The translations under genes and the position numbers were made by a program. The notes beneath the pieces are model-generated. The model was not told where the DNA came from and searched no databases. It saw nothing but the letters and a program-made list of their open reading frames with translations. 64,000 bases of DNA from Ulota crispa. Lineage: Eukaryota; Streptophyta; Bryopsida; Orthotrichales; Orthotrichaceae. Location: assembly GCA_963920765.1 (NCBI GenBank), contig OY987245.1:7146727-7210726 (forward strand), read 5' to 3'. Shown here one piece after another: positions 8,883 through 58,653 of this stretch (position 1 is the first letter of the stretch; every line of letters begins with the position of its first letter).

Positions 8883-9101
8883 GGGTAGGAGCACCCAATA
8901 CCAATAGTGTACCTAATGGTGTCACTCTCTACATAAGATAACCATTTTAAAACTCAAGTCTATGTAGATCATAGATAGCTTATTGCTGTTGACAAAATTG
9001 ATAAGCTATCTATGCTGTATCTAGATTTAAGTTCTAGAACAACCACCTAGTGTTGAGAGTGATGCCATTAGATACACTATTGGTATTGGGTGCTCTTACC
9101 T
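8883..9101. mobile_element. AGGTAG-family foldback MITE
   Basis: TA flanks on both sides. The ends are GGGTAGGAGCACCCAATA and its imperfect complement at the right. The whole element folds back on itself through a 'atagatagcttat...ataagctatctat' core. It shares this core with 15208-15419. It sits in intron 2 of P450 copy 1. Confidence 0.8.
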
Positions 9102-9271
9102 TAATGTGAAATACAACCTTGATTGTTTGATTTTTCATTACAGGTAGTCACCCCTTCTTCACCCCATTTTAAATCTCCGGAAAATGGAGTTGTAAATGAC
9201 TTACTTGATTTTTGGAGATCAACACATTATTTGTTAAATTGGGAAAAACGGGTGTCCCATTTTGTACCCAC

Positions 9272-10182
9272 GGGTGATTGCAAGAATGACCTGTACTACA
9301 TTCTATCCCCCTCACCTTTTGCGGCTTGTTTTTTGCTTGTAACTTTTGCAAAAGAAGTCATATCACTAGTAGAAAATTGCATTAGAATTTACTAAAAATT
9401 GTAGGTAGTTTTTGATGAGTTCCATGTTTCCAAAGCAAAATTTTGTTGAACAACAAAAAAATTTGCATTGGAAACATGGAACTCAACATAAACTACCCTA
9501 CAATTTTAGTGAATTGTAACGCAATTTTTTTCTAGTGTATTGACTTGTCCTTTTAGAGTAATGTGAACATGCAAGTTATTGACGTTCAGTGATTTTTTGG
9601 TGTTTTTTAAAATTATTTTGCTATTTTTAAGCAACCCCCAAATAGGTATCTACCTTGGCCATTTTGGAGGTTTTTAGTGCTATTTTGGGTCCAAAAAATC
9701 TTTTCTAGGGCTATAAATCAAGGATATTGTTTATGGAGCATGCTTACACGCACTTGTAGAAGGGTTTTGCAAAATTATAAATTCCATGGCATCTACATTG
9801 TCTCAAAGTGGACATCCTATCTCCCTTCATTGGCAAAATGCAAAGAAAATTCCTCAGCAAAGCAATTCTACCATGCAAATGTGTTTAATGGGTTCTCAAA
9901 TGGCCATTTTTTATTTTTATTTTTTTGAATAATTTTACAATTTTCTAAAAAGCAAGAAAGAAATTGGCTTTTTGTTGGTGATTTTGTTTTGTGCATAATT
10001 TTTAGAATAAAATTTTTCTAGGTCTAAATATTCACAAGTAGGCTATTTTAAGTGCTCTACAAATTTTTCATATTTTATTTTATTTTTTAAAATTTTACTT
10101 CAAAAGCTCATAGTACTTCAGAGTACTACATAGTACTAAAAGTGTTTGAGACAAAATTGGCAGGTCATTCTTGCAACTACCC
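9272..10182. mobile_element. GGGTGATTGCAAGAA-family DNA transposon, nested copy
   Basis: Starts GGGTGATTGCAAGAATGACC. The right end is its approximate inverted repeat (GGGTAGTTGCAAGAATGACC on the opposite strand). A second copy at 32047-32776 shares a long interior, including 'ggagcatgcttacacgcact'. With the inner CACTA MITE removed the two are 734 and 730 bp. No transposase is visible. The target duplication is ambiguous (possibly CCAC). Confidence 0.75.
9364..9537. mobile_element. CACTA-type foldback MITE
   Basis: Begins CACTAGTAGAAAATTGC and ends GCAATTTTTTTCTAGTG, with a 3-bp TAT duplication (9361-9363 and 9538-9540). The interior is a long hairpin around 'gttccatgtttcca'. CACTA ends with a 3-bp TSD are diagnostic of the En/Spm superfamily. 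Confidence 0.85.
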
Positions 10183-15166: not shown

Positions 15167-15207
15167 TGATTATGCTCTGCTTTTCCACCTTGGCCCACAT
15201 TGATGTA

Positions 15208-15419
15208 AGGTAGACACACCCAATATGGAGCATGATCCTAATGTGGTGCATATGTGCATGGCTAGTACATTCTAAAATCTAGGCAAATCATAGATAGCTT
15301 ATTTTTTGTGACATAGAAAATAAGCTATCTATGACTTGCATAGATTTTAGATCCAAATGTACTAGTTGTGCACATATGCATCACATTAGGATCATGCTCC
15401 AAACTGGGTGGGTCTACCT
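15208..15419. mobile_element. AGGTAG-family foldback MITE
   Basis: TA at 15206-15207 and 15420-15421. Arms of about 100 bp are nearly perfect inverted repeats (AGGTAGACACACCCAATATG...). The loop is only a few bases long. The core is shared with 8883-9101. Confidence 0.88.
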
Positions 15420-15452
15420 TATGTGCAATAAACTGAGTCAGCTTAAGCTTAA

Positions 15453-16416: not shown

Positions 16417-16649
16417 TAATACACTGCCGTGCCAAGTTAAGTCCACTGGTTTGCAGCAGGAATCCTGGCTTTTGAGAATCTCTTTTCTGTCCACCTGCCA
16501 CATGTTCCACCCAAACCTTGTGTAGTCCATGGGCCGTTTTGATATACTGCATAAACTATGATAAGAAAAGGGAGTTGATATTTGCACACTCAAGGTTTGA
16601 TATGTGCACAGCCAGGCCGTAAATTTTAGATATTTATCAATATAGTTAA

Positions 16650-17268
16650 CCCCTAAAGGACCAAGTCCTCTTTTTGAGGATAAATGAGATTTTGGGCATG
16701 TACCTATGGCTAAATTACTTTGCGTGATTTTTTGAAAGTTTTATGGATGATGGGGAATTTAAAGATTTTATGTGGGCATCTATTTTTTTCTTCATTATGG
16801 CATCTACTGAAGATTTGAAAAATGAATTTCTAGAAAACGGGCAAGACCAGGCAGCCCAAAAACTTCTTTAAACATTGCATTTAAGAAAATTAAAATATGA
16901 AATAGGTTCTTTAGATTTATATATACATAGGGAGCATTGAGCCATTCAATTTTCATTGATGCGATGAAAATTGAATGACTCAATGCTCCCTATGTATATA
17001 TAAATCTAAAGAACCTATTTCATATTTTAATTTTCTTAAATGCAATGTTTAAAGAAGTTTTTGGGCTGCTCGGTCTTGCCCGTTTTCTAGAAATTCATTT
17101 TTGATTTCTTCAATAAATGTCAAAATGAAGAAAAAATCAGATGCCCACCTAGATATTTGAATTCCACGCCTTCAATAAAAGTTTTGAAAAATCACAAAAA
17201 ATAGATTAGCCGTAGGCACATGTACAAAATCCATCTGTCCCTCGAGGGGACAATTGGTCCAGTAGGGG
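16650..17268. mobile_element. Giant foldback piggyBac-like element
   Basis: TTAA at 16646-16649 and 17269-17272, with ends CCCCTAAAGGACCAAG and TTGGTCCAGTAGGGG. The element is almost wholly palindromic: two arms of about 305 bp meet at 'attgatgcgatgaaaat'. Shared words include 'cccgttttctagaaattcat' and 'ataggttctttag'. Non-coding. Confidence 0.85.
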
Positions 17269-17656
17269 TTAATGAATGCCCAGTGGAAACTTTAAATTTT
17301 TTATGAATAAGGGTAAAAGTAGTAATTTACTCCCTAGTTAAGTTTTTCCATTAAACATTGTTCAATTGTAACTGCCTTTGTGGTCCTACACTAAATCAAG
17401 ATCTCTAAATCCAAATGTGAATCCAAATTATCCAAATTCAACTTATTGATGATAAATATCTAGAATTTACCCCCCGGGCGGTGCGCATACATCAAACCCA
17501 AAAAAGTAAAACTAAAATGCAAAGATTTGAGATGAGTCTCTTCTTGGCTTCCATTTTGTGGCAAAGTTGATAATTCCATCAATCTCATAAGTCCTCATGC
17601 CATTCATATTCTCATCTAGGGCTTGAAACGGTTTCTACACATTCATTTATAATTAA

Positions 17657-18422: not shown

Positions 18423-19683
18423 TTAACCCCTAAAGGACCATGGTCTTTATTTTGTCAAAAGACACTCAAAACTATCCCATCTATGGCAAAGAGTAAAAAG
18501 GTTTGAAAATCAGTCATTTTGCATATCTAGCCGTAGGATCTTGTACTAAATTACAATAAAAATGTGTCATACAAAACTCAAGAGCTTTGACCGCATAAAT
18601 TGGAAGATATTTGCATATAAAGTGTAAAAAGTAACTTTTTTTGCACCTTATTTGACCATATTATTTAACTTTGAACTATTTTAACATAAATTTTTTGCAC
18701 CATAGAGTTTAGAGTTCTAATTTTTGTGGTGGGAAGTTGAGTTGGGAATCTTGGGAAAAAAATTCAAACAAAAAAATTTAATTTTCATCCTTTAAAAAAT
18801 AAATTAGGTAGAAGAAAGTATGAGATTGAAGAAAAACTTATATTGTTGATAACCGTGCAATGGAATTGAAACGCAGTAGTTCCAATGGTAATATTGTTCT
18901 AGAAAGCAAACTTCACCCTCTCCAACAAATTTTTTTGGAAAGATGTTAAAATTGCATTCTAAAATGAAGTTTATAAGTTATTTTTTCAAAAAGATTCTTA
19001 AATTGCCCAAAAACAAGATTATCTAAAACTTTCTCATTACTAGTCCAAATGGAATGAATCAAATCATCAGATGTAGACAAATGTATAATCTATGAGAAAA
19101 AAAATTCAAGTTGTTATGAGACTTTTTTTTGCTGCCCAGAGTTTCCAAATTTGTACTTAAGTGGGCATAACTTTTGCTCCCTTGTTGTGTAAATAAAGAT
19201 TGCTAAATACAACACATTGTGTACTATCACTATCAACAGATAAAAACAAATATGTAATCCAAAAACATATATACAAATATGCTCTCAATTGCCCCCTTTA
19301 GCTTGCTAATAGAGACCCGCGGGTCAGCTAGGACTATACTAAAAGTATAGCTAGATCCAAATGTTAAGATGAATGAAAGTCCTCAAGATCTATCTACACT
19401 AAAGGTGATGTTGTTGGCGGTCGACAATGTCAAGTGAACATGATGAAAGAAAGTATGAAAGATTGTAGGTTGAGTGCAATGATGAGCCCCATCGTTAATT
19501 GCCTTTGGCAAGTTTTTAGTATCAATTTTTTATTCAAGCTCCCATTAGTCTAACCTTATACTCTGCAAATCTGGCGCTTAGTCAACAAAGGTGGCAATGC
19601 TATCATCTCAAACATAAGAGGCTTGACCTCAAGAGATTATCAACGCTTGTCCGGAGACGTAGCATGGCCTAAAGATCTCCTAC

Positions 19684-19816
19684 AACAAAAATAAATCCAA
19701 CCTCTTGGAGGCAGAGTCAATAAGGGCGGAACTAAGCATGCTATATGCCAACCACGTTGGCGTTGGTCACATAATAGCATAGTAGCCGCGCCTTTCTTCT
19801 CTCCACAAACAAAACA
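19684..19816 (-). pseudogene. PHD-finger-like C-terminal domain of the retroelement
   Basis: Read on the minus strand (frame start 19954): CFVC, then MLLCDQRQRGWHIACL, then PPLLTLPPRGW and FCC. This matches the PHD pattern C-x2-C ... LCD-x-C-x2-GWH-x2-C ... W-x-C-x2-C. Arg replaces the fourth ligand and the last Cys pair is disturbed, as expected from decay. It follows the integrase, the place where many plant gypsy elements carry a chromodomain. A histone-tail reader role in target choice is inference. Confidence 0.7.
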
Positions 19817-20099
19817 AGGTAATCCTTTTGGCACCACTGCCGACACCAAGTGCAAGGTACTATCAATGGGCAAGTGACAAAGGACACAATTTTTAGAATG
19901 CTTCCTGCATTCTCGCCCATCTTTGTCTTTCAACAAGAGAATGTCACTAGGCAAGACGTTTTCACGCGAAGAATGGTACGTCCTGCTCTGACATCCAATG
20001 TAGTAGGCGCCTCACACTGTAAATACACATAATCTCTTTGAGAGAACCTTTGCAGTTGAGGTAGATAAGCGCCACTACAAATGCGCGCATAACACAAAG

Positions 20100-20960
20100 A
20101 ATCTCAATGTTGAGCTATAAGCAAGTTCTCCAAAGCCATAGGCATGGCCCTCTTGAAGAATTCAGCCCAATCATATAGGCATTGAGTCCAAACATCTGGA
20201 CTATCCACGTCCACAACTGAAGTCAGCTTCTCCTGCATAGAGCTAGGCAAAATAGGCTCCCTTCCATATAGCAACTGGTAAAAGCTGTAAGAGGCTAAAG
20301 AAGCTTGCTTAAATAAACAATAACCCATGGCAATCCATGGCAACATCAAATTCCAATTTCGATGGTTCCTACAAAGCAATCCATACTTGCATAAACCACG
20401 TTTGACTCTTTAAACAATCCGTTCAGCCAAACCATCAACCTCTCGGTGATTTCTAGAGGTGGTGCGGTAATCAATCAAAGCCTTGGTGAATAGAGTCTCA
20501 AAAGTCCCTAGAAACTTTTGGCCTTGATCTATCAAGACTTCAGCCGATATTAAAAAGCATGCCAATACTTGGTCAAGAAATGCATTATCTGCCAACTCTG
20601 AAGAGTTTTGAGGTATAGCAACAAACTCAATCCACTTGCTAAAATGCTCTACCATCACCAACACGTATGCGGCTCCATGTAGTGTGACTACAAGCGGCCC
20701 AGCAAAGTTCAAAGACCAATGATAATTTAAATCCATGATTGGTAAAGGCCTCAACTGTGGTGATAAGGTGTTAAAACTTGATCTCACTCGATTACACACC
20801 TCACATTGAGAAATATAGGTGGAAACTTCTTGGTACATGCCACTCCACCAATATTGATTGCGCAATATAAAATGCATTTTGCGCACTCTAAAATGATAAA
20901 GCTCCTCATGCACTTAGCGTATCAAAAAAGCTCTCTGATCCAATCAAGGAACTATGCGCT
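20100..20960 (-). pseudogene. Retroelement integrase
   Basis: Zinc-binding part: HEELYHF, then YWWSGM and CEVC (HHCC type). Catalytic core: NFAGP, where the first aspartate of DFAGP is Asn; the second aspartate in LIDQGQKFLG; and the glutamate in GLAERIV. A C-terminal piece (LYGREPILP) follows after stops. The missing catalytic Asp and the stops make it non-functional. Confidence 0.85.
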
Positions 20961-21239
20961 TAGCTCTATCTGGCCAAATTCAAATCAACAAGCCGTTATC
21001 CCAATGGAACCTTGCTTTTTGATAGTAAACTTTATCTCGTTCCATGGTAGAATATCCAAAAGAAAGGATCTATGCTGAAGCTTGTGCAAGTCCACTGAAT
21101 CTTTCCACACATCTCTAATATTATGAGACTTATCAGACTCATCATCCAAATCTAAATCAATCGCCTCAGCAGCAGAGCTTGACATAAAAGTCAAATAAGC
21201 AACTGCGTACCGGTCTGGAATTGCTTCCCTATCATAATC

Positions 21240-21620
21240 TCCATACCATCTAGCACCAGTTAAATCCTCATCAGAGGGACTTGGATTACAAGAAAGCCCG
21301 TTCGCATTCAAATTAGTGATACCAACTCGGTGAACAACCTCAAAGTCATACTCTTGAAGCAATAGAGTCCACTTAACAAGCTTGCCAGTGAGTTTATCTG
21401 ACTCCATATGTCACTTCAAAGGTTGATGATCTGTTACCAATGTAATCTGCTGCCCATACAGATAAGGCCGAAAATGTAAAATGGCTCATATAGCAGCTAG
21501 AGCTTCCCCCTTATAAGACGAATAATTGGACTCTGCCAAGTTGTTACTCTTTGAAGCAAATGCAATAATATACTCTTGTCCTGCATCATCTATCTGAATA
21601 AAAACTACACCTAATCTCAC
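21240..21620 (-). pseudogene. Retroelement RNase H domain
   Basis: Minus-strand reading gives FASKSNNLAESNYSSYKGEA (cf. the gypsy pattern 'YASR.L..AE.NYS..E.E'), then VVHRVG and LNANGLSCNPS (cf. 'N.NADALSR.P'). It directly follows the reverse transcriptase. Broken by stops and frameshifts. Confidence 0.8.
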
Positions 21621-22039
21621 TGCACTCTAATTTGTGTGCAATTACAAATGCGTAGTAACATCAGGACGTCAAAGCATGAGTGCTGAGTCTAACTTTTACT
21701 TCAACGTATCAAAAAACAACTGCTGCTCACGGTTCCATGTCCAAATTTGATCTCTGCAAGTGAGCATAGTCAAAGGCTTAGCAATCAAGCTGAAGTTTTT
21801 GACAAAGCGGTGTTAATAATTTGCTAAACCAAAAAATGCACGCAACCTTGGAACATCACAAGGTGTTGGAAGCTTTTGAAGAGCATCCACATTTGCTTGC
21901 TATATGCCAAGTCTCCATGGAACTATCATATATTCCAAGTATAACAACCGGTCATGAAAAAATTTGCACTGGCCATGATGCAAACGTAGTCCCTACTCAC
22001 GCAACCGCTCAAAAATGGCTTGAAAATGCCTTATATGCT

Positions 22040-22500
22040 CCTAAGATGAACTACTAAAGACAATAATATCATCAATGTAGCACCGAGCAAACGACAATCC
22101 AGTCAAAACACGGTCTATCATCTTCTAAAACTCAGCAGGTGCGTTTTAAGACCAAATGAAAAAAATTTCCAATAATAGAGTAGATCTCTGTCATCATGAT
22201 TTACTCTCCAAAATACAGTCTTCACACAATTTTCCAATCGAAGTGACAACTGGTGGTATCCACATCTCAAATCCAATATACTGAAGATTCGAACCAATCC
22301 CATTGAATTAAATAACTCCTCTAGCGTTGGCATAGGATATTGGTATGATTTGGTTTTTTTATTGATCGGACGATAATCTCCACACATCTTTTTCTCAATC
22401 CAATTACAAAAAATATCATTCTTAGAAAGCATCACTATAGCACAAACATACTCGCCATTTGATAATTCAATCAAACCTGCAGCTAAAAACTCTTGACATC
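22040..22500 (-). pseudogene. Retroelement reverse transcriptase
   Basis: Contains CGDYRPINKKT, YPMPTLEELFNSMG and FSILDLRCGYHQL (first catalytic Asp), then FSFGLK. After a frame change it has FARCYIDDIIV near 22065-22100, which is the YxDD active site. This is a clear Ty3/gypsy reverse transcriptase. Lesions lie between the two catalytic blocks. Confidence 0.92.
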
Positions 22501-22994
22501 AAGCTTGAACACTAGATCTCCCAGAACTACCTAGCTTGTAAAGACCTCTGAAGATCAGATGACCATCCTTAAGCTGAATTTAAATGAATTTGCTTTTATA
22601 ACCCTCAAAATCATAAAGATTAAAAACAAAACAACTCTGGTACAAATGGATAATTGCTCACATCTCATGTGCCTTAACATCTGTGAGATGATGACTTCAA
22701 TTCAAAAGCCAATCATCAAACTCCGTGGTAGTCTTCTCCATCAAAGAACCACCATTAAATATAGACACAATCAGTGGTTGCTAATCAGAAAAGAGAGGGA
22801 CAATATCACTGCCTGCAGCATCGCCATTTAAGGCCAAAGTAGCAAATGCTTTTTAAACTTGAAGCTCATTCAATATTTGCCACTGAAAATGAAAATGATG
22901 CTCAGAATCCTCTCCAATTGTAGCGATTGATATTCCCATTGCTCTCTGACCATTGTCCTCTGTTTCCAGAGTAAACAAATGGCTATATTGCTGC

Positions 22995-23985
22995 TAAACA
23001 GCAATGCAACTGCCAACAATCCAAATCATGCTACAAAGATCCATAGTCTGATTCAATACAAAGTGTCATTGACCTTCAGTGAAATCATGAGCTGCTATAG
23101 TGCCAATAGAAAAATCCATGGCACGTTCTCTCTCATTTGCATTGGGTTTTTTATAAGTGTGACTATGAGAATCCTACACCATGTCAGGTTCACGTGCTCG
23201 GAATGCAAAGGATTTAGGATATATAACAAAGGTCAATAATGCCTCGCAAGGCTTTCCAATCTTATTGACTAAAATAAAAGAAAGTGAATCATCTTTGGTC
23301 ACAACCAAAAGTTCCCTATAGTCATGCAAAATATCCTTCACAACACGTCTTGAAAGTCTGATAATCTATGAAAAAACCTTAGCCAACATGAAATGTGACA
23401 TCATATTGGTTCAAAACCAACATGGTCAATGGACAAACGACCATAATGCCGCGGCATCCACAAAAGTAGGAGAGCCAAGAATTTGGCAAATATAATGGCT
23501 AACATCTATCATTTTTCGCCGATCATCGCCCAACGGAGGTACATTCTCAAAAATATACATAGATGGAATGGTTTGTTGGTTATACCAGCACTGTGTAATC
23601 CTCAATTCCTCACCAACTCTATAAAAATGTTAGATATTGGATCATCTAACCTTTGATTTGCACTAACTTGTGAGTGACCTTGACAATGCCATTCTACTAC
23701 AAACAAATCAACGTGGCCCAACCTCCTCAAATCCTCATCATTGATAAGAGTAATGTCTCTGGGAAGGTGGCTAAAACATCCATTCATGGATGATGGAGGC
23801 AATTGTTTAGAAAATTGAGCCATCAATCTCTGAAGATGATGTCGGGCTGCTCTGGTAGGCACATAATTGTTATCAATATAAATGTATAGCCGAATCATGA
23901 GCCCAGCCTCTAAAATGGTTGCCAATCTAGTGCTAACACCTCAAAAAAGCTCCGCAATTGTGATTCCGTTTAGAGATGGACGTCA
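22995..23985 (-). pseudogene. C5 cytosine DNA methyltransferase domain inside the retroelement
   Basis: Lies between the protease-like and RT regions. Blocks in canonical order on the minus strand: an AdoMet-binding motif I (GITIAELF, stop, GVSTRLATILEAG) near 23975-23930; motif IV VDLFVVEWHCQGHS near 23680-23715, where the catalytic Cys is kept and PCQ has become HCQ, followed by LDDPISNIFIELVR; motif VI YIFENVPPLGDDR near 23525-23555; then LGSPTFVDAAALW and a decayed H(R)PRWFWTN-like block; finally NERERAMDF and a motif-X-like VLNQTMDLCSMIWIVG near 23020-23150. The style is DNMT3/DRM-like. Known role of the family: methylation of cytosine C5. It has several stops and frameshifts, many at codons explained by C-to-T or G-to-A change. 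The substrate of the ancestral enzyme is unknown. Confidence 0.82.
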
Positions 23986-24489
23986 ATGAACAAGTTGTCC
24001 AAATATAGAGCTTATGGGAGTAAAAGCTAAAGAGCCAAAAGGTATAGCAACTGCAATGTCCCTACATTGTTGGGACAACTTTTCATAGCTAGTCTAAGGT
24101 GGTAAGGCATCTTTAGAATGCTGAGGTGTAATCATCAAAATTGACAACTCTCGTCGGTCCTCTGAAAATGCGGCAGTAAACGCCAAAGATTCCTCCACAA
24201 ACGAAGGATTAAATCCAAGGCTCTCCAAAAATACAGAGCATCCAAACATAGCGTTAGCAACCATAAACAGAGTCAATACTGCAAATGCAACTAGAATCAG
24301 CTTTTTCTGGCCATCCCTAAAAGACCATTTTGGTCTAATCCACGCCTCTTTGGTCTAGTTATCCATATTAAAACCAAGAGGGTAAAGCGCCTATTGACCA
24401 ACTAAAATATCATAGTTGATCGCATTGGTAATAACGCACCTCAAAGAAAACTGAAAATATGTAGGTCCTTCCACTTATTCAAAAAATCA

Positions 24490-24690
24490 ACTGTAGAGGC
24501 TCTTTGTTATAGCGTGTAGCATTTTCCATGTCCCCAACTGAAATGACAATAGCAAATGGACAATGCACAAAATCCTTAACAATCAAACCAAGTTCTGCCA
24601 CCAAATGTTTGCCAATCATAACTGGCTGGGCACCTAACTCCATCATCATTCTGAGTGGAATAGCTCAATGACCCTGCTTTTTACCACGTA
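24490..24690 (-). pseudogene. Retropepsin-like protease domain of the retroelement
   Basis: Minus-strand reading gives RMMMELGAQPVMIGKHL, AELGLIVKDFVHCPFAIV and GDMENATR. The LGAQPVMIG block corresponds to the D-S/T-G-A active-site loop of retroviral-type proteases, but the catalytic Asp is not evident (ELGA), either by mutation or by family divergence. Confidence 0.6.
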
Positions 24691-25269
24691 AAATCACAAA
24701 CACTTCATTGTCGTTTACTAAACAAACAACACATGGATGTATTGCTTATCGCTCTCTAGCGAATCTAACTAATATATCTGTAAGATAAGCTCCTTTCGTC
24801 GCTAGAGGTGCATCTATTGAAAAATGATGTGGTGTGTGGCTATTCACATGCGTACAAAATGCTGTAATAGCTTTAGCTACAAGCTTAGCTAGTAACTTTG
24901 CTTGAGCTTCTAAATCATGAATTGAAAAAGTCTCAACAATAGTCTGAGAAACCTGAAGAAATGGCATGTCCGTCTTCCTTTTTGAAACACGTCTCACTAT
25001 ATGAAAGACTTCAAAAACTTGGAAATTAGGTGCCATCAACTTTGAATTAGAAAATATTGACATATGCATAATCTTGTAAACCACGATTTGCAATAAATCA
25101 GGTGAGGCAAGACTTTGATAATGTAGAAGTAAAACAACTGGGCGTGTGTCTGTGACAGCACCATCAGCCAAACCAAAAGATAATAGTAAACGCGTCTAGC
25201 CAATAGAATCAGCAGGACTATCGTAGTATGCGGGTGAGACAACAATAACATCTGGCACTGGAGAACTAA

Positions 25270-25760
25270 CTAATCCTCTAGTGGTCTGAGATCAGGTAGC
25301 AGCTGCAGCTCCCAATGCACCAGATGCGCCGAATATATATAATGCTCAGAGCTTGAATAATCAGCTGTCTTTTTGGAAGATGTCCCAGAATCAGAAGCTT
25401 GAGCCAATGATGCAGAAGTCTTGAACTTCTGCTCTAGCTCTACTACATTGGCATTAAAAATTTTCTCTTTTTGTAACTTAGCAGCCACAAAATTAGTTGA
25501 CTTCATCTCATGATGAAATTGAAAGCAGGGATCCTCATTATGGTTAATGCCACTACAATGATTGCACTTTAAAGCTTTCTTCTTGGGCTTAACTTCACTT
25601 TCACATTTTCTTTCATAGTAGCCTTGGATGGCTGAGAAGGATTTTTCAGTTTTTCTGGACAATCTTTCTTAGTATGTCCATCTTGCTCACATTTTTAACA
25701 ATGCAAAATCATCTCTGGCTTAGTATCCGCCAGACTGCTAATGACAATAGAGGTCTTCTT
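25270..25760 (-). pseudogene. Retroelement gag, two zinc knuckles
   Basis: A CX2CX4HX4C knuckle is intact: CNHCSGINHNEDPC. A second, further upstream in the protein (HC, stop, KCEQDGHTKKDC, about 25670-25720), carries a TAA inside its CxxC. Lys-rich sequence links them. Gag-like but unalignable sequence continues to about 26780. Confidence 0.75.
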
Positions 25761-26553
25761 AGATTTGGAAGAATCTTTCATGAAAGAGATCATATCTGTG
25801 GCGTCATGATGATAAAGAACTCGGTGACACTTCTCAACCACAACAAAAGTTTAAACTAAAATAACTTTACCATCATAATCATAAGATAATCCGAAAAGAT
25901 GCTAAATCTAATAATCACTTGTCGATCTTTGACAAAAAGATCTTTATGAGTTAACTCTTAGTAAAAACTTCACCAAACTCGACAATAAACCGTGCCAAGC
26001 GAGCGTACATAATGCACGACATATCTTCATTTTCCCTCTGTAGGTCCTAGACAAACTGCATCTGACCACGACGAAATCTGCTATACTCCACCTCAAAATT
26101 TGCAATTAACTGCGCTAGTGGATCAAACTAAAATATGAAGACTAATTATGACCATTGCCGTCTGAGTAGCATGAGCTGTGCGCGATATGATAAATGGTGT
26201 GGCATTCTTTGTCTTTGGTCCCAGAGCTATCGCTTTGTTCTTGGAATTTTCAGATACCGATGCGTCACCTTTGCTAGACTTCTCCTCTACCTTCACGATT
26301 GAAGAGACTAAGGCAGCTACTGCACCATCCTTGAGAGCTAAAACAAACTCTATTCGCGTGTCTCAAAAAAACTGCACTTCAAAAAACTCAAGCTGATGAA
26401 CATGAGTCTACTGCTCATAGGTCTAAAAAGCTTTAAATTCCAAATGTTAAGATAAAAACTCAAAGGCAAACCAGTCGTTGAAACTAGGCAACCTCTGGCG
26501 CTTCTCCTAGACCTATAAGCGGAAGCAAATCTTTCAATCGGGAAAAAAAATCT

Positions 26554-26784
26554 TCATACTTGTCCTAAGAAACAATCATGCACCGATCTACAGTGATTGT
26601 CTTCTATCTCGTCAAACGTACCTACACTCAAGACCCAAAGTCTACTAATAGTATTCAACGTCAAATCATGTTGAAAAGTTTTGTTGATATCTACCATTGA
26701 CCCAAAATCCTTGGTATTGTCAACTTCTAAATAGTTTGGTAAAGAAGACCGATAATATTGGCTTCTAGTCTGCATCATAAACAA
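26554..26784 (-). pseudogene. N-terminal part of the retroelement gag (unidentified)
   Basis: A 76-codon minus-strand frame with no recognisable motif. It is placed in gag only because it lies upstream of the zinc knuckles in the same orientation, and neighbouring frames between 25.8 and 26.8 kb look like broken continuations. Confidence 0.35.
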
Positions 26785-27067
26785 ACTACAAGGATACTTG
26801 CAACTATCTAAAGACTTAAGACAATCTGTAACTATCTAAAGGCTTAAGACAATTTGACTTACAATCACCAGCAAGCTGTGTGGTTCACTGGTAATAACAT
26901 CCGGTGAGCACAAGTTTAAGACATATAAAAAGATTTCGTCGGCAATTAATCCGACCTCACTTTCACAATACGCCCACCCCCAACAAAAACACAAAACAAG
27001 ACAATATCCGCAAACAAAGAAGATACCAAAAGATAGAATCTAAAATACAAATCTTGAATCATCTTTT

Positions 27068-27175
27068 CACTACGGGAAACCATTGTCATTTTGACAAAAA
27101 AATGTGACATAATCCACAATTACGGTAGACTAGGTCACATTTCTTTGTCAAAAAAATCATGATTTTTTTGTAGTG
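27068..27175. mobile_element. CACTA-like foldback MITE within the retroelement leader
   Basis: Begins CACTACGGGAAACC, ends TTTTTTTGTAGTG, and folds through 'gtcattttgacaaa' and 'tttgtcaaaa'. The flanking trinucleotides (TTT, TCC) do not match, so the TSD is decayed or the boundary is slightly wrong. Confidence 0.65.
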
Positions 27176-27719
27176 TCCCTAAACAACAAATAAGCAAAAG
27201 CAAAACTTACACAACCAGCCAACATCTAAAAAATGGACTATGTCGTTTTACAGCGAGATTCAATCTTGTGACCCTTGACTGCTATTTTAAGAGGTTATCG
27301 TCATCCCATCAAAAGGTTACGTATAAAATGAATCTTGTCATCCATATGTGCTCATTTTTTCTAGCCCAAAACTATCATCCAACAACAGATAAGCAAAAAA
27401 AAAAAATCACACAATCAACACACGCTTGCAATTGGTGATAAATGGCAAATTAAAATGCAACAACCTACAAATTCAATGCCCCCAAATCCAATGTCCAACA
27501 ATCTCATAAGAAGTTTTGACAATGTTCTGTAAAATTAGTTGTAGCATTTAGGTTATGAAAATCCAATGGATTGCTTTTAAAATGTTTAAGTGATTAATCA
27601 AAAATCCGAATTTTTAAGAGCTCCAGCCGATAATTCTAGGCTTAAACTCTGATCTGATGGGTGAAAAACTGAAAAGGGAAGAAGATGGTACTCACAACCG
27701 AATCTGGCTGCAAGTGTTG

Positions 27720-28680
27720 GTTGTTGAAAATAAGATGAAAATTTTAAAGGATAAGTGGGAGGTGATAGGTGCTCAGCAGGTGGTCTGAGGAGCTGCTCCG
27801 GCTTGCTGCAGCTCCCTGGCTGCAGGCCTGGTCCGGCCCTGGCCGATGCTTCTTCCCGGAACCCTAATTTTTGGGCGTCCTGGCTCTTTCCGGCGGCCTG
27901 CTCCGTCGTTCAGCCCCCGTCGACACCTGCCGCCGTGCTGTAGCTCCAAGCTTGCGCTCCGCGCTGTACTCCCGATCGAAATCCTAATTTGTGGTCGTCT
28001 TCGTCTTGCTGCAGATCTGCTGCGACGTCGCCTCCGGGCCCCAGCCTTCCGGCCGCTCTAGCTCCTCGTCCCCGATCGACGTCGCCTGCTGCCGACGCGT
28101 GGTCACGCGGCGTCCAGCTGCTGGTCCCGGGACCTTCCCTTGTAGACCCGAAACCCTAGCAGGAGACTCGTCGCTCCTGCTCCGCTCCGCTGCCCCGATC
28201 CGGCGCCGCGCCTGCCCTCGTCGATTCACGAGCTTCCGAAACCCAGGCGCCGGACACATTTGGAAAGTCGTTCGCTCACGCAGCTCCGACTTCAGCCGTT
28301 GCTCCCGAAACCCTAGTCGGATCTGTTGAAGCTACTGATCGTTCTTCCGGCGTCGCAGCTCTCCAGCTTGTGATCGAGAAATCCACACGCGTGTTCACGC
28401 TGGCCGGCCACTGTTAGGGTTCATCCACCTCCGGCTCTCCACGTGAACTCACAATCCAGCAAAGCAAAGAACCTGCACTCACAATCACGTTCACCACCGG
28501 TAATGCACCAACCCCGTCAAACTCTCCGGAATCAAACCCTAAGCGGCAGCAAGCGTATGCAACTCCCGCAACTGCTCCACAGCCCGGAATCAAAACCACC
28601 GGCTCCGTACTCCGGTAAAGCTCACACCAAGCTCCAAAATACTCAAACGACAAGTCCGAAACCAAAAACTTAAGAACAGA
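27720..28680 (-). other. GC-rich 5' leader or LTR of the retroelement
   Basis: An island of strongly elevated GC in AT-rich surroundings. On the element's sense (minus) strand CTAGGGTTTC and related AGGGTTT words recur, resembling the telobox found in many plant 5' leaders. Several overlapping open frames on both strands are a by-product of high GC and match nothing I know. Probably promoter and leader sequence. Confidence 0.5.
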
Positions 28681-29214
28681 AATAAGAACATGATTCTTTG
28701 TCAGGTGATAAGATACGAAATCTAAGCACTTAAGCGTCAGCCAAGCTACCTCTCACTCCGCTCACGAGAGAATCCAAAAGTGTAAGAAGAAATGTGAAAG
28801 ATAATATAAAACTCAGGAAAATACAGCAAACGTACTTTCTCAAAAACACCTTACAAGACTTGATTTGGCAAAAAATGTCAAGGTAGGGAAGTAACGTGCC
28901 TTAACTAATCTCAAACCCTAAGCGGCCTCAAATGAGGTGCCAACTAGAATGAGGTGCCAAAGGCCCCTAACCTTCCCCAAAACTACTAAAAACAAAAATC
29001 ATTCACTAATGACATACATCCAATGTAGCATAGCCATGATCACATCACATGACACCTTGGCATCAACTGAAATAAAGATTGTATTTTTCAAAAGCTAATG
29101 TGATTTTTTATTTTCAAAAAAAGCTTCAAAAAATTAAGACAAAAATTGAGGCCATAGGTACTTGCCCAAAATCCTATTTGTTCCTTGTAGGGACAATGGT
29201 CTTTTAGAGATTAA

Positions 29215-29723
29215 CAAAAACTTAAATTGCTAATAACCCTACAATGGAGTTGAAATGCAATGATCCCAATGGTGAGATTGTTCTAGAAAACAAACTTCAC
29301 ACTCTCCAACAATCTTTTTTGAAAAAATACTAAAATCGCATTCAAAAATGAAGTTTATAAGTTATTTTTTCAAGAAGATGCTTGAACTGCCCAAAAAACA
29401 AGATTGTCCATAACTTTCTCATAACTAGTTCAAATGGAATGAATCAAAATTTCAAATGTAGACGAAGATATAATCTATAAGAAAAAGAATTAATTTTTTT
29501 TTAAGTTGTTGTAAGAATTTTGCTTTTGCTGCCCGAAGTCCCTAAATTTGTGCATATTTGGGCATAACTTTTGCTATCTGGCATCAATTGGAATAAAAAT
29601 TAGATGCCCACGCAATTCCCCATCTTCAATAAAAGTTGCAAAAAATCATGCAAAATAGTTTGGCTAGAGGTACATGCTCGAAATCCCATTTGTCCATTGT
29701 ATAGACAGTTGGTCCTTTAGGGG
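29215..29723. mobile_element. 5'-truncated copy of the large TTAA element
   Basis: Aligns closely with 18860-19180 and then with the part that family copies carry further on, ending GTCCTTTAGGGG before TTAA (29724-29727). The left part is missing, and it starts exactly where the previous copy ends. Confidence 0.65.
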
Positions 29724-29822
29724 TTAATATCAAATTTAAATTATCATTATTCCAATATCATTTGAACTAATATTAGTCATATGATTTGGGAGACAGTCAC
29801 TTTTTGGGGGGTTGAAGCAATC

Positions 29823-30132: not shown

Positions 30133-30140
30133 AGTCGCTA

Positions 30141-30367
30141 TGGTAGACATACCTTATTCCACGGTTTCCACCCATAGTGCTAATACCGCGCGTTTGTACC
30201 TGGCGTAAGCATTTTACCCCCAAAATCTAGGGAGGCTGTAGATGTCTTATTTTTTGGGTCCAAAAAATAGGACATCTACAGTCTCCCTAGATTTTGGGGA
30301 TAAAATGGCCACGCCACGTACAGACGTGCGGTATTAGCACCATGGGCGGAATAAGGTATGTTTACCT
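30141..30367. mobile_element. AGGTAG-family foldback MITE
   Basis: TA on both sides, ends TGGTAGACATACCTTATTCC and GGAATAAGGTATGTTTACCT. Arms of about 100 bp are near-perfect, with 'aaaatctagggag' facing 'ctccctagatttt'. It sits 8 bases from the preceding element. Confidence 0.85.
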
Positions 30368-30420
30368 TAACTAAAGACCACAACCTAACAATTGAAGCAA
30401 GACAACAGTGCTGAAATGCA

Positions 30421-31737: not shown

Positions 31738-33889
31738 AGGACCAAGCCCTTTTTCTAGTGAAAACCACTGAAAACAGCCACATTCATTAGAAGAAATATG
31801 AGCCCTCCATAAGGCCCTAAGAACTTCATTTAAGCGGTCTTCTTAATTGTTTTAATTTTTACTTTGGGATAACAAAAATTCCTTACACTCTACTATGCCT
31901 TTGACGACAATCATGTCTCACATTGGCATGTCCAGTCTTCATTGGGTGTCACAATTACATGTACATATTACCATGGTCTTTTTTCTCTATATTAAAATCT
32001 TCAACCTAGTACTTGTAAGGGTAATATTTAGTTATGATAATGTATAGGGTGATTGCAAGAAACACTTGTACTATTTTTTGTCCCCTTCACCTCCCGCAAG
32101 TGCTTTTTGGCTTGTAACTTCTGCGCAGCAAATTCTTTTGAGTTGAAATTTCAGAGGAAGGTGTATGTCATAGTTACAAATCTTTTATAATTTTTGCGGT
32201 TTTTTTAAAATTATTTTACTATTTTTGAACAACCCCCAAATAGGTATCTACCTTGGCCATTTTGGAGGTTTTTAGTACTATTTTGGGTCCAAAGAATCTT
32301 TTCTAGGGCTATAAATCAAGGATGTTGTTTATGGAGCATGCTTACACGCACTTGTAGAAGGGTTTTGCAAAATTATAAATTCCATGGCATCAACATTGTC
32401 TCAAAGTGGGCATCCTGTCTCCCTTCATTGGCAAAATGCAAAGAAAATTCCTCAGCAAAGCAATTCTACCATGTGAATGTGTTTAATGGATTCTCAAATG
32501 GCCAATTTTTGTTTTATTTTTTTGAATAATTTTACAATTTTCTAAAAAGCAAGAAAGAAATTGGCTTTTTGTTGGTGATTTTGTTTTGTGCATAATTTTT
32601 AGAATAAAATTTTTCTAGGTCTGAATATTCACAAGTAGGCTATTTTAAGTGCTTTACAAATTTTCCATATTTTATTTTATTTAAAAAAACTATTCCAAAA
32701 GCTCATAGTACTACCTCATATTACCAGTACTAAAAGTGTTTGAGACAAAATTGTGAAGTGTTTCTTGCAACTACCCTACAATAGTAGGAGAATAATTTTA
32801 AAAATTGTGACATAGTACTAAAGTGCCATTTTCTATTCATAGTTTTTGTGATGCACAATAGGAAAGTCATAGAGGTAGAGACACTTCACACAAGTCTCAC
32901 ATGCTACTAATGTACCCAACCTAGGCTCAATAAATGTTAAGAGTGCCAATTCTTAAAGGCCTTGTGGAGGGTTCAAAATTTTGCTAATGCGGGGGAATGA
33001 GTAGAAATGTATGAAAACAAGTTTTTTTTTTTTAAATCCAAATATAGGATCTTGCCCTAGACTATGGGAGGTACTTGTGGGAAAAAAATCAACTCATTCT
33101 AGACGTAGAGGAGTGAGATATTGACATTTGAAGTGAAAAGAAAAGATTTTTTCCTTGTTGCCCAGAAATTTCAAAAGCCTTTGACTACTCCTAAATAATA
33201 AAAAATTGCTCTACACAAAGTTGAGGTTTATTTTTTCCATGTAGATGACCAAGTTAGGTAAGTGTGGGAGAATTTTCAAAAGAATTGGAGGTGTGGATCA
33301 TACTTTGTAAAATTTTGCAATGCCGTAAAGCCATGAAATTTGCATATACACTAGGCAAAGTTGGAGGGTTTATTTAAAATTCAAAGATCTGAATTACTTT
33401 GATCCAAATGGTGAAAAACAAGGAATCTTAGTCTAATACAACTTGGAAAAAGTAAAAGTAAAAAAGCAAATACACAAAGAGCTCAAAAAAGTAAAGCACC
33501 AAATTTTACAAGGGGCAAATGGAATGGAGGTTTGGGATTCCCATCCTTACCTGCAAACTAAAACTTCTCCCTCATCAATCAAAGTTGAATGATTCAAAAC
33601 TTCTCACATATATTGAAGTCTAAAGAACCACTTTTAGGTTTTTCTTTCAAAAAAATGCAATTTAAAAGAAATTTTTGAGCTGCCCGCCCTCCCCCATTTT
33701 TCAAAAATTCAATGCATAACTTCGTTAATAAATGTTGGAATAAAGACAAAATTAAATATCCACATAGATCTTTGAATTCGCCATTCTCTATAAAAGTTTT
33801 AAAAATCATACAAAGTAGTTTAATTGTAGGTACATGCTCAAAATTCCAGCTGTCCCATGCCCCCCAAAGGGACAATGGTCCTTTAGGGG
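31738..33889. mobile_element. Large TTAA-type element, interrupted
   Basis: Starts AGGACCAAGCCC after TTAA 31734-31737 (the preceding GGGG is the right end of a small element like 3444-3585). It ends GGTCCTTTAGGGG at 33889. The right part resembles the right arm of 16650-17268. It contains the insertion at 32047-32776. Confidence 0.45.
32047..32776. mobile_element. GGGTGATTGCAAGAA-family DNA transposon, second copy
   Basis: Ends GGGTGATTGCAAGAAACACTT and, on the opposite strand, GGGTAGTTGCAAGAAACACTT. Flanks TATA and TACA. 730 bp, closely matching the interior of 9272-10182. Non-coding. Confidence 0.8.
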
Positions 33890-34354
33890 TTCAAATTGTA
33901 CTCTTTTTTAGAAAACCTAGCTAGTTTTTTCCTTTTTTCAAGTTTCAACCGGTTTTTTCTTTTTTCTTGCAATTTCATGGCCTATTCCCATCCGCACGTC
34001 CATCTACAGATTTGTTAGCCACAAACACTGTTTGAAGCGGATGACCAAAAAATTCATTCTCATTGACAAGGAGCATTTCAAGAATGAATGCAAATAATAT
34101 AACACAAATAAAAACTAAAAGCAAAAAAAAGTTTAGAACCCAACCACTTGGAAGGTTCCACGTCATTACTATCACTTTTTGGAGTCATGCATGAAACCTT
34201 CCCATTTATTACTTATAATGGAAGAATAAGTCACTTTAAAGAACTTGATTTACTTACACATTCCAAATATGTCAAAAAGAATCATTTCAAACCCATGTTG
34301 GGTGATCTCAGGGAAGAAGACAAAAAGATTCTCACCCAAACACATCCAAAAGAC

Positions 34355-35633: not shown

Positions 35634-38600
35634 TTGCGTTTGAGGAAAGAAGAGCTAGAAGAATTACAATTTGTGGAGCATGGTTTGATTGATGACATCG
35701 GGCTTGCAAATTGGTGCGTGCAGGTAGTGGCAGTAGCATTACTGGTGATTCAAGTGAGCAGGCTGCTATGGAGACAATCCAAGTTGAACATGCCGCCAGG
35801 ACCAAGAGCGTGGCCCATCGTGGGGTCGTTACACCTGTTGGGCATGCAACCCCATCGGAACCTGCAAAAATTGGCCCAGAAGCACGGGCCAGTGATGTCG
35901 GTGTGGTTTGGGCAGCGCCTCTACATCGTGGCCACCTCACCTGAGGCTGCCAAAGAGTTTCTCAAGATCCAAGATGCCAACTTCTCTTCACGTCCGCCGC
36001 TCCAATTTGGCGAGCTTGTACTCCCTGGAGGTACGTGCTTAGTACTACTACCCTTCTTTGTGCCTCAAGAACGCTGCCTCCAATTCCTATAGACAAGATT
36101 TAGGATGAAAGTGTTTTATCTAGTGGAGTTGTTACAGTGGAGCTGTTACAGTGCAGCGGATGGTCAGTAGGTGTTAATGCCATGTCGACACCCATTCCCA
36201 TCAAAACTGAAGAACAAGATTTGGGATCATCTTCCAAAGTGATCCCAAATCTTGTCCAATGAACAAAACACTTCCTTTGTTATTATTATAGTCATTTTTT
36301 CACCTTATCTCCATCGGATGTCTAGTTCCTAATCTGAAACCTTCCATTAGAAGGACATACTCAATGATGAAAAGGCAATATCCCACCAAATGAAGGCAAA
36401 CAAAACATTGGACAAATCATTTTGTGTCCACTAGTTTGTCCACTTCATGTCTGAACCGGGCCTGAAGAGAATTGCGCTCATTAGGGGCAAATCTAGCTAT
36501 GACAATATATATCTTCCGGAATTTGTACTGATTCTAATAATCCTTGATACGAGTTCTACTTTTACATGATTCAAAGTGGGTAATGAAAGTAGACACCGGA
36601 AAAGTATTGAACATGCGTCTTGGTTTTAATTCCAAGGCATCATTAATATTGATAATCATTAAAACTGCTAAATTCTAGTCAAAATTTCTTAGTTTTAAGA
36701 TGAGTGTGTACTCGCCGCTATGGTTTGGCGATTTTTCACCGCAGACTTGGTGCTTCAAGACATCACGCCTGTGACTCGGCACCTCCGAAAAATCCTGGTG
36801 GCAGAGCTAATGTCCGGCAAGCGCTTGGACTCGTCTCGCCACATTCGAAGCGACGAAATGGCCTTCACGTTGCAGAGACTGTTCCGAGAGGCACCTGCTC
36901 TGACCCAACTCAAGCCGCACCTGCACATCATGTCTTCCAACGTGATATCACGCTTGGTCCTCAACAGACGGTTTTTAGGCGAGGAGGAGGACCACAATTC
37001 AACCCAAATGATCCAGGTTCAGTACTAGCCATGGTTCTTGTGTTCCTTCTTTTCCAAAGTTTGCAAAACTTGCAACATGCTATTCATTAAACTGGGAAAA
37101 ATGTAGGTACCATTTTGTATTCCACCTGAAACCCAAAAAGTTACTTTAAGCGAGATTCAAAGGTATCAAATTGAGTCTGAGCCATTAAGATTTTTTCCCT
37201 CGCAAATTCCTCTTCTCAAGTGAGGGCACGTGTACCCAAAAAAAATGTTGTGAGCTAGAATTTAGGTGATCACCTAAATTCTTGAAAGTCCCAAAATATA
37301 TTGTTTTTCTCAATTTAACAAATAACATGTTTTGCTCAAATATCAGCTAATGTGGAATGACAACCTTGATTATTTGATTTTACATTAGGGAGTAGGAGGC
37401 TCTAATTTGGAGCATGCCCTAAAACAAAGCATCTCCTCAAATGTACATGGTTTGTACATGTTGTTTTTCACAACCCTTCAACAATGTTCTTACTATGTAC
37501 ATTTGAGGAGGTGGTCAGATTTAGAGCCCTATGGCCTTTCCACTTCAAAATTTCATATCTAATTCCAAAAAAATTCAAAAAACGTGTAACAACTTGGGTT
37601 AGATGCCAATTCTTCTTGTTTTTCAAGGAAAATTTACTAAGAAATATTTCAAGAAGTTTCCCCTCCCCAATATTTAGTTTCAGCCCTTAGATGCTCCATT
37701 CATGAGCCTCCTACCTTAGTCACCCCTTCTTCACCACATTCTCAATCTTCAAAGAATGGGGTTGTGAGTATAGTGTCAGTCTCTACTTGATTTTTGAAGA
37801 TCCCAATTTTGAAGGTTGAGAAGTTTTTCTTGTGAAAAAAATCCTTACACATCAGTTTTTACTCACTCGTCTTATTTTCACCTTTGTTGGTTTTTGTTTA
37901 TCGTCATTTTTTTTGTTTTTAACAAAAAAAAATTGCCTATTTCTAGAAGTTGCTAATTTTGCTTCCACAATAGCAACCTCTTACTTTAACCATTCTCTCA
38001 TCTCCATCCTTCACCACCAATAAAATAGGAGTTACACCTTCTTCCATGGAGAAGTGCTCCCATTGGCTTCTATTTCCAATTCACTACTTCTCATTCTTCA
38101 CGGAAACTTCATCATTAGAGGCGTGATTACTCCTATAAATCCCATATTCAATCAATATGAAGTTGTTAGTTATATATGGAGTGTATTAGGACTTTGTGTT
38201 GGCCAAGATACACTCCATATATAACTGACAACTCCATATTGATCAAATATGGGGTTTATCGTTTTACCCCTATTGTTATTATAATAGTGAAATTGCATTA
38301 CAAACATATGTGTTTAGGTACTTGAATGGAACTCATATAGAGAGATTGATAGTCCAAAATTATAGAGAGATGGATAGTCCAAGTTTTGTATGATAATATG
38401 GTTCTAACCCCTAAACCACAAAAGTTTGTTCAACAGTCAATTGAAAGTTTGGGTAGGTTCCTAAAAAGTCAATTTTTGGTAGATGTTTCTAAAATTTGGA
38501 GACGAGGTGCACACAATGAATATCTTTGTGTGAAAAAAAAAACTAAAATAGGATGCTTGAGTAAAAAGTCATGCTACCCAAAAGAATTTGGGCACCTTAG

Positions 38601-57662: not shown

Positions 57663-58653
57663 TTCAGGTAAGAATCTCACTTCAAAGTTCATGCTTAAAT
57701 TTCAGCCTTGCTTGCACTGAAGTTGTAGATGTCAAAGCTCTTATTGAACAGAAACTTCACAATTCATGTATGTTTTCTTTTTGGCATTCCAAGTGAGGTA
57801 ATCAGACATGGTAGTCATGAATCAGTACAGATTGTATATATTGCAAGTGTCATTTGATACATTCCAGCCTTCATAGGAAAATGGGGGGAATCCGAAGTAC
57901 ATGGTACAATTGTATGTGGAAAGCTATGCTGACAATTCAGCTGTGGCTTCTAGTAGATTTCAAGGGAAGCCTATGATGGAGAACAAACTTCTACGCCGCG
58001 TCTTACAACTCGCCTCGCCGACCACCTGCACTGTCGCTAACAAGTTAGTAATTCCTTGTCTAGTTAAAACATCAACATGGAGAGTAATTTTTTGCATGAA
58101 ATGAACAATGCAAGAGTGTTGAAGTGTTCAATTGTACCTGCAAACTCAGAGAATACAAGAGGGAATAGAGTTAAAGAGACATGGAATTCAGCACTGTCTT
58201 TGCTTGTTCCCAAAAACAAATGTCACGGGACTAATGCTACCCTCCCATACAAATATCTTTGTCTCCTCACACTCATAACCTGCAAAACGACCACACACAC
58301 TCCGATGCTTGAATAAGTACCCTCCCAAAAGAATGTACATTGGTGAAGTCATGTGTAGAGATTTACCTCATTGCTGTGCTGATCATGTTTGAGGTGATGT
58401 CATGCTTTTGTTTTGTTCATGAATGTCTCTCCCAAATGTATAGTTCGTGGTGTAGTCTTCCAATGCCCACTCCATACAGTAAAATTGTACACTGGTGTCT
58501 GTTTTAGCTGTTGGCGGTCTACCTTTGCGGACTTTTGGGTACAACCAACCTCCTACACAAGTGAAGGGTCACTCCAACAGCGGTCATTCCGCACAAACAA
58601 CGCCTGAAGTGTCCTAGATGGCTCCTTCCGTCGACAATACATGAGCTGTTAAC

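Follow-up and report, generated by a model that had tools for sequence, protein, structure and literature searches.

A putative DNMT3-type cytosine methyltransferase in a decayed Ty3/Gypsy retroelement family of the moss Ulota crispa

We analysed a 64,000-nt stretch of the Ulota crispa genome (contig OY987245.1; henceforth the window, in whose coordinates its features are given), in which an initial annotation had placed a C5 DNA methyltransferase within a Ty3/Gypsy-type retroelement of a plant. Judging by sequence comparison, the feature is probably a methyltransferase (MTase) domain belonging to a dead member of a green-plant Ty3/Gypsy family that encodes its own DNMT3-type cytosine-5 methyltransferase. 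The initial annotation was right and understated: it had recognised the domain, its position between protease-like and reverse transcriptase (RT) regions and what looked like a land-plant host, while the split terminal repeats, a readthrough-type stop codon and a PHD finger went unmentioned.

Taken alone, the window piece 23602-23940 (minus strand) matches the Pfam DNA_methylase profile with E=0.023 and 14.6 bits, below the 22-bit cut-off. In contrast to this weak match, relatives make the identity of the domain secure: residues 1-592 of P0001, a metagenome protein of 637 aa, match the window with E 3e-144 in three minus-strand pieces (24619-24452, 24468-23608 and 23605-22832). PF00145 was found above its cut-off in L009, a genomic copy with a 384-aa open frame (1.7e-8, 34.8 bits), in P0001 (45.9 bits) and in P0126 (1.9e-14, 54.3 bits), so the profile search named beforehand as a check on the annotation did detect the domain. 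The motifs that had been picked out by eye lie in order on one strand: a stop breaks motif I (IAELF*GVST), motif IV has WHCQ in place of WPCQ but retains the Cys, motif VI (FENVPPLGD) is undamaged, and ANERERAMDF forms the IX/X block. The domain spans 22988-23982, nearly the same interval as in the initial annotation (22995-23985). The window copy is dead, carrying a frameshift near 23605 and 7 stops among the aligned MTase codons.

Among aligned homologs, motifs I, IV (PC), VI (ENV), VIII and IX/X occur in unpermuted order, and the catalytic P, C, Q, E and N columns are at least 90% conserved across 55 homologs, down to 34% identity. By both sequence profile and fold, DNMT3 is the nearest relative. 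Between the DNMT3 and DRM profiles suggested for comparison, the former therefore fits; a DRM identity was rejected on the profile and on motif order, which runs from I to X in the element and is permuted (VI-X before I-IV) in DRM. As the enzyme falls outside the host DNMT3+DRM+DNMT3A group in the tree, we call it DNMT3-type rather than a host orthologue. Pfam gave no ADD domain beside the MTase; a PHD finger sits at the far end of Pol.

The host genome (274.8 Mb searched) contains at least 96 matches to a 112-aa MTase piece, some of them halves of one copy, and 85 of the 96 have stops. Protein-guided mapping covered 13 copies, i.e., the window and 12 fetched 10-kb loci (L009-L020) picked for MTase presence. 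All 13 have the order protease-MTase-RT-RNaseH, followed in 10 by integrase and then PHD; in the three without a mapped integrase-PHD part (L009, L010 and L017), the element is interrupted or extends beyond the fetched sequence. This order with an rve-type integrase, together with the Pfam matches of L054 (a relative on a contig filed as bacterial; see below), upholds the Ty3/Gypsy assignment. To avoid selecting for MTase presence, we used a relative's RT as a genome-wide query and scored 150 matches out of 707 first-look candidates: 95 separate family matches (52-84% identity), 42 others (32-48%) and 13 second halves of split family matches, which were excluded from the count. An MTase was present upstream, on the same strand and within 6 kb, in 86 of the 95 family RT matches (median 1168 bp) versus 0 of the 42 other Gypsy RTs; the segment is thus carried by genomic relatives. 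A PHD match lay downstream of the family RT within 10 kb in 89/95 cases and within 3 kb in 82/95 (using 93 of 112 PHD matches for the pairing, the weaker, unrelated-looking ones having been dropped). Contig C45, with an RT 47% like the family, was rejected as a member, being by eye an ordinary Gypsy without MTase.

Table 1. Features of the window element and of the repeat abutting it.
Feature	Position in window	Strand	Basis or remark
Decayed Ty3/Gypsy element, A1 to B1	19183-29054	minus	Gag-protease-MTase-(in-frame UAG)-RT-RNaseH-integrase-PHD
A1, left (5') terminal repeat of split-direct-repeat set	28707-29054	minus	79-88% identity to A of L011, L012, L013, L016, L017, L019
Gag part with CCHC zinc knuckles	25270-25700	minus	C..C....H....C pattern in translation
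Retropepsin-like protease	24334-24619	minus	tblastn E 1.2e-25
DNMT3-type C5 cytosine MTase domain, decayed	22988-23982	minus	tblastn E 2.7e-93; motifs
UAG CAA CCA, CARYYA-type readthrough context, between MTase and RT	22775-22783	minus	in frame with both sides
RT	22047-22657	minus	tblastn E 3e-32
RNase H	21282-21605	minus	tblastn E 7.7e-29
DDE integrase, H2C2 zinc domain and rve core	20410-20988	minus	tblastn E 1.2e-29
C-terminal PHD finger	19640-20011	minus	PF00628 E 9.3e-6, 26 bits (cut-off 24)
B1, right-hand repeat, 107 bp	19183-19289	minus	87.9% identity to L011 B1
R1, abundant unrelated repeat abutting B1, outside element	18822-19178		partner R2 at 29207-29575, 81%

In the window copy, a Pfam scan of the Gag part gave no gag match; one zinc knuckle is readable at 25566-25525 (CNHCSGINHNEDPC) and a second, broken by a stop, at 25700-25659 (C*KCEQDGHTKKDC). 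The protease active-site motif, which reads MLDSGAQPVMIG in L054, has decayed to MMELGAQPVMIG, and Asp_protease_2 (PF13650) is above cut-off in P0023 and below it in L054. RVT_1 matches the piece 22118-22498 with E 0.0073, below its cut-off, and the integrase matches Integrase_H2C2 (1.1e-12) as well as rve (1.9e-6, 28.5 bits, below the 32.6-bit cut-off). A whole-genome search with a PHD query placed the window finger at 19646-19840.

When prokaryote genome contigs were scanned with a tight MTase alignment, one locus, an intact relative, was found: L054 (CADCWO010000201.1, 9285 bp), labelled as a Synechococcales cyanobacterium metagenome-assembled genome (MAG). Its contig ends are identical over 127 bp, indicating a circular assembly, which would result from collapsed direct repeats or from DNA that is itself circular. 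Frame 1 runs uninterrupted from the contig start to 3491 and holds zinc knuckles (by eye), a weak protease match and the MTase; frame 2, starting at 3492 in the same frame, encodes 1047 aa with RT (4e-31), RNaseH (2e-38), H2C2 (1e-17), rve (1e-13) and PHD (4e-10). Pfam at E 0.01 gave no chromodomain in this second open reading frame (ORF), the PHD finger being present instead. L054 is evidently eukaryotic and probably plant DNA in a bacterial bin. Another homolog, P0003, is filed as a Candidatus Obscuribacterales ‘DNA cytosine methyltransferase’; both entries are likely mislabelled contamination of MAGs by retroelement DNA, probably of plants. ‘Bacterial’ DNA methyltransferases from MAGs call for caution, as they can be eukaryotic retroelements.

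Named hosts of further relatives are green. An MTase profile search returned 186 homologs, and the plant names among the 120 listed were the liverworts Calypogeia fissa (P0033, on an 8.8-Mb contig) and Marchantia polymorpha (P0048). A search for integrase-PHD proteins returned 395, with the chlorophytes Haematococcus lacustris (P0132) and Volvox reticuliferus (P0169) as the organism names among the 120 listed. No MTase was detected in P0132, and that of P0169 is degraded, matching the family profile but not PF00145 at E 0.01. In the best 120 of the 395 proteins, many of which are fragments, the architectures (MT, MTase; RH, RNaseH; INT, integrase) were INT-PHD (35), RT-RH-INT-PHD (30), MT-INT-PHD (23), RT-RH-MT-INT-PHD (17), RH-INT-PHD (8), RH-MT-INT-PHD (3), and one each of MT-RT-RH-INT-PHD, MT-RT-RH-INT, RH-INT and RT-RH-INT. 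In an integrase tree of 121 sequences (FastTree, midpoint root), a clade of 41 (support 0.999) contains L054, both MT-RT types and none of the 43 proteins with an MTase directly before the integrase; all 43 fall within the other clade of 80 (support 0.866), as do, by exclusion, both named chlorophytes. Of the 41 proteins in which RNaseH is joined directly to the integrase, 4 are within the clade of 80. The position of the MTase thus follows integrase phylogeny, implying either one domain move or two captures. With four named hosts, equating the two clades with streptophytes and chlorophytes is a guess. The PHD finger of the element is closest to those of CHD4, PHF12, UHRF1, KDM5 and PHF21A, several of which bind H3 tails unmethylated at K4.

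Between the MTase and the RT lies an in-frame stop codon in a distinctive context. The two open frames of L054 are separated by TAG CAA TCA, and the window has TAG CAA CCA, preceded by the MTase and followed by the RT; these are the two cases in which continuity of frame was confirmed. We take CARYYA after UAG to be the tobamovirus-type (type I) readthrough context. Aligned in 13 copies, the homologous site reads TAG in 11 and TAA in 2 (L011, L012), with a match to CARYYA in 12. TAG-CARYYA is also found between MTase and RT in L014, L015, L016 and L005 (the stop contexts of the first two being CAA TAG CAG and CAA TAG CAA). Altogether, 16 of 19 copies have a readthrough-type motif at this position, with UAA as the stop in two of the 16. 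At the protein level, 7 of 21 homolog tails end in ...(N/D)AL(S/A)AT(K/Q), like L054 ahead of its stop, the rest ending otherwise or being cut. This layout suggests that the MTase is probably part of the abundant Gag-side product, with RT, integrase and PHD in a readthrough product.

The ends of the element consist of A (about 350 bp) on the left and B (107 bp) on the right, instead of two full long terminal repeats (LTRs). A1 gave 172 first-look candidates in the genome, 40 of which were scored as matches with 84-100% identity. Five copies could be followed to both ends: L011, L012 and L016 have A1...B1-A2-B2, and L019 and the window A1...B1 only; L013 has a right end of B1-A2-B2. No B was found ahead of A1 in L011, L012 or L016, and a search to the right of the window B1, where A2 and B2 would be expected, showed both to be absent from this copy. 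The short form could have arisen from the long one by B1-B2 recombination, or it could be a second form that inserts as such. Three of the five copies with both ends thus carry split direct repeats of the DIRS/PAT type (A...B-A-B), yet the integrase is of the DDE rve type, and no Phage_integrase match, i.e., no tyrosine recombinase, was found in the three L054 ORFs scanned. A purine-rich tract lies just before B1 (by eye), and the copy flanks show no clear shared 4-6 bp that could represent a target-site duplication. A1 and A2 have diverged in L011, L012 and L016 (K80 0.127, 0.167 and 0.137), with 117 transitions versus 15 transversions, an excess expected from the decay of methylated cytosines. 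The repeat R1/R2 (about 360 bp; 2193 first-look candidates in the genome, 40 scored) occurs on both flanks of the window element; it was rejected as the LTRs since it is an abundant unrelated repeat and the true termini are A and B.

Where the MTase came from can be addressed by comparison with the enzymes of the host. Translated exons, examined by eye, revealed at least two canonical multi-exon DNMT3 genes and at least two permuted DRM genes; the joined exons of one DNMT3 gene match PF00145 with 2.8e-29, and six more places outside the element family match this profile. (DUF3444 as the tail of the host DNMT3 was dropped, the pieces tried having no Pfam match.) Host DNMT3 shares with the element MTase its collinear motifs and a motif IV with PCQ (VDLVVGGFPCQDLS). 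The element enzyme differs from host DNMT3 and DRM in its uninterrupted frame (in L054), in its location inside Gag-Pol and in branching outside both, DRM being set apart by its permuted motifs as well. Canonical DNMT3 is reported to be missing from angiosperms but to occur in gymnosperms and non-flowering streptophytes (PMC6453930). In line with a moss host, PsaA encoded on the chloroplast contig scores highest against PDB 8htu (1733 bits) and 6l35, 7ksq, 7kux and 7xqp (1713 bits), all from Physcomitrium patens, ahead of 9lut (1698 bits) and further entries at 1651 bits or less.

Of the alternatives to a family-wide DNMT3-type enzyme, a chance resemblance or a lone MTase pseudogene dropped into one copy can practically be dismissed: the window piece by itself does fall below the Pfam cut-off, but the strength of the P0001 match and the MTase accompanying nearly all family RT matches speak against both. 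Acquisition from a bacterium, phage or giant virus is very improbable. PCQ occurs in motif IV of bacterial enzymes, but it is no bacterial mark because host DNMT3 has it too, and the viral contigs, with 28 loci of phage-type C5 MTases (29-58% identity in the best segment), yielded only distant matches to an enzyme whose profile and fold are closest to DNMT3; we rejected this origin by profile, fold and tree. Harder to set aside, if still unlikely, is the idea that several green Gypsy lineages (charophyte, bryophyte, chlorophyte) captured DNMT3 separately. The MTase sits either before the RT or between RNaseH and integrase, its position tracking the integrase tree, and the Klebsormidium nitens case was called an independent acquisition in the account of de Mendoza 2018 (PMC5890265). 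On the other hand, a single split of the MTase tree (UFBoot 91) separates all 21 element enzymes, P0093 and P0123 with the other architecture among them, from host DNMT3, DRM, DNMT3A and bacteria; this tree comprises 249 columns with some partial rows and is shallow evidence.

What the enzyme does for the element can be proposed from its layout. The conserved catalytic residues in 55 homologs and the long open frames of L054 and several homologs argue for an active MTase in living relatives, and de novo CG methylation has been shown for SymbioDIRS enzymes (PMC5890265). Translation would mostly halt at the UAG, yielding Gag-protease-MTase at the dose of Gag and hence of the particle, and a minority of ribosomes would read through to add RT, integrase and PHD, a scheme for which we see about an even chance. 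The packaged MTase might then methylate the element's own DNA, as cDNA or right after insertion, such that the element would arrive pre-marked as silent or self chromatin and host maintenance enzymes would copy the mark, while the PHD finger on the integrase C-terminus would tether the complex to the H3 tails of target histones. We hold this to be a credible proposal, if slightly short of an even chance. DNMT3 itself carries a PHD-like ADD domain next to its MTase, and the pairing of writer (MTase) and reader (PHD) in the element resembles it in function, not in descent.

Two other roles have to be weighed against self-methylation. The MTase could act in trans on host DNA, competing elements or RNA rather than on its own cDNA, the high Gag-side dose reshaping host chromatin. 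Its place ahead of the stop, from which an excess over RT would follow, favours this, and PMC5890265 discusses undesired genome-wide methylation by Symbiodinium retroelement enzymes and, for the LINE type, the possibility that RNA is methylated; nevertheless, we think it fairly unlikely, as fusion to Gag-protease suggests capture in the particle, a free nuclear enzyme is without support here, and the enzyme is of the DNMT3 rather than the DNMT2 type. Retention of the domain in a role other than catalysis (in particle assembly, nucleic-acid binding or SAM sensing) would suit relatives whose MTase is degraded, for example P0169 of Volvox, but appears improbable given the conservation of the catalytic columns noted above.

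Combining these elements, we tentatively advance a joint scenario to which we give clearly less credence than to self-methylation by itself. One Ty3/Gypsy lineage would have gained both the DNMT3-type MTase and the PHD finger before the chlorophyte-streptophyte split and retained both in green plants from then on, and the MTase would have moved within Pol once. Land-plant members, with a leaky stop of the tobamovirus type, would produce the enzyme in the same amount as Gag and arrive pre-methylated, and their DIRS-like split repeats combined with a DDE integrase would mean integration from a circular or permuted intermediate.

Several observations count against the picture of a self-methylating family. 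Nine of the 95 family RT matches have no MTase within 6 kb, although four of these (two on C11 and one each on C7 and C1) have a same-strand MTase match 6.6 to 16 kb away, a distance that insertions in between would fit. Stops (1-13 each) interrupt 18 of 18 genome copies that are readable over most of the MTase; the family copies examined in this genome are dead. Pairwise, weakly informative dN/dS values among these relics are 0.52 for the MTase, 0.54 for the RT and 0.49 for the integrase, and they carry little weight because the MTase read in wrong frames as a control gives 0.62 and 0.88. An MTase shares the ORF in 45 of the 120 best INT-PHD proteins; 30 are RT-RH-INT-PHD without MTase, as a second ORF downstream of the stop would be, and 35 consist of INT-PHD only. 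The split-repeat form is not universal, two of the five both-end copies (window and L019) lacking A2-B2. As for the stop, L002 is one base off CARYYA, no TAG-CARYYA site was found at the homologous place in L006 and L007, and motif conservation is the one line of evidence that suggests readthrough.

Further observations concern individual copies and their surroundings. The window segment 27598-28660, between A1 and Gag, has a G+C content of 57.6% and a CpG o/e of 1.02, compared with 38.6% and 0.53 in the rest of the element's internal part; it is shared only in part by other copies and is perhaps a younger or foreign insertion. L009 has a diverged direct-repeat array at 8798-9762, right of RNaseH where the integrase would be expected, with a PHD match farther right (C5:6857523). 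Two pairs of copies in opposite orientation with identical match scores, C3:32753934 and 32773896 (20 kb apart) and C4:9403135 and 9413291 (10 kb), are large inverted duplications or an assembly artefact. Around the element, the window holds mutually related imperfect inverted repeats (16646-17272, 33573-33891 and 29614-29728) and separate ones (15206-15421 and 30139-30369), with an arm identity of 81-85% in gapped alignment for 16646-17272, 15206-15421 and 30139-30369; these are possibly hairpin-forming non-autonomous elements. Cytochrome P450 pieces lie either side of the element at 6779-7276, 35634-36092 and 41074-41691 (plus strand), with Pfam p450 E-values of 3e-9, 6.5e-14 and 1.5e-53, respectively. 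A DDE_Tnp_4 transposase in two adjoining frames is located at 62763-63935 (minus strand) and a Myb/SANT-like piece, below its cut-off, at 58645-59109. Elsewhere in the genome, 46 of 48 psaA/psaB matches are outside the chloroplast contig C157, on nuclear contigs (e.g., C1:39701403 and C8:3239066), some of these fragments being long and open.

Transposons are usually the targets of methylation; here, a large family in land plants, a lineage with elaborate methylation, brings its own methylating enzyme, making it testable whether an element profits from silencing at birth. This suggests that DNMT3-bearing Gypsy elements, rather than being a peculiarity of K. nitens, may be widespread in green plants; with similar parts in liverworts and green algae, DNA-marking tools may have been on board green-plant mobile elements for a long time. 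Split repeats combined with a DDE integrase pose a puzzle for models of integration. A literature search, with subscription papers and preprints outside its scope, did not find land-plant hosts, the PHD finger, the readthrough layout or the second architecture.

Known systems resemble the moss family in parts. The UAG CARYYA of tobamoviruses has the same stop and 3' hexamer, but in the moss family, where it is known here from sequence, it stands in a retroelement between MTase and RT. Plant chromoviruses are Ty3/Gypsy elements with an integrase chromodomain; as in the moss family, a chromatin reader is thus found on the integrase C-terminus, but in the latter a PHD finger replaces the chromodomain and an MTase is present. 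The dinoflagellate SymbioDIRS-Dnmt3 and SymbioLINE-Dnmt are likewise retroelements with captured C5 MTases, the former, described with A-coding-B-A-B ends, sharing these and the DNMT3 type with the moss family; by the published description, they differ in having a DIRS RT with a tyrosine recombinase, or in being LINEs, in place of a Ty3/Gypsy RT and DDE integrase (PMC5890265). The closest is KnitGypsy-Dnmt3 of the charophyte K. nitens, compared here by its published description: it shares the Gypsy domain set, an intronless DNMT3-type enzyme in Pol, conserved catalytic residues and the DIRS-like A-coding-B-A-B terminal order, and the moss family is distinguished from it by a land-plant host, an MTase before an in-frame leaky-type stop and a PHD finger at the end of Pol, a domain that the main text of that paper does not mention (PMC5890265). 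Published C5-methyltransferase retrotransposons, which the initial annotation had cited, therefore do include the same kind (de Mendoza 2018; PMC5890265): the moss family belongs to the DNMT3-carrying Gypsy elements and extends them to land plants, the additions being the PHD finger, the stop of readthrough type and another architecture.
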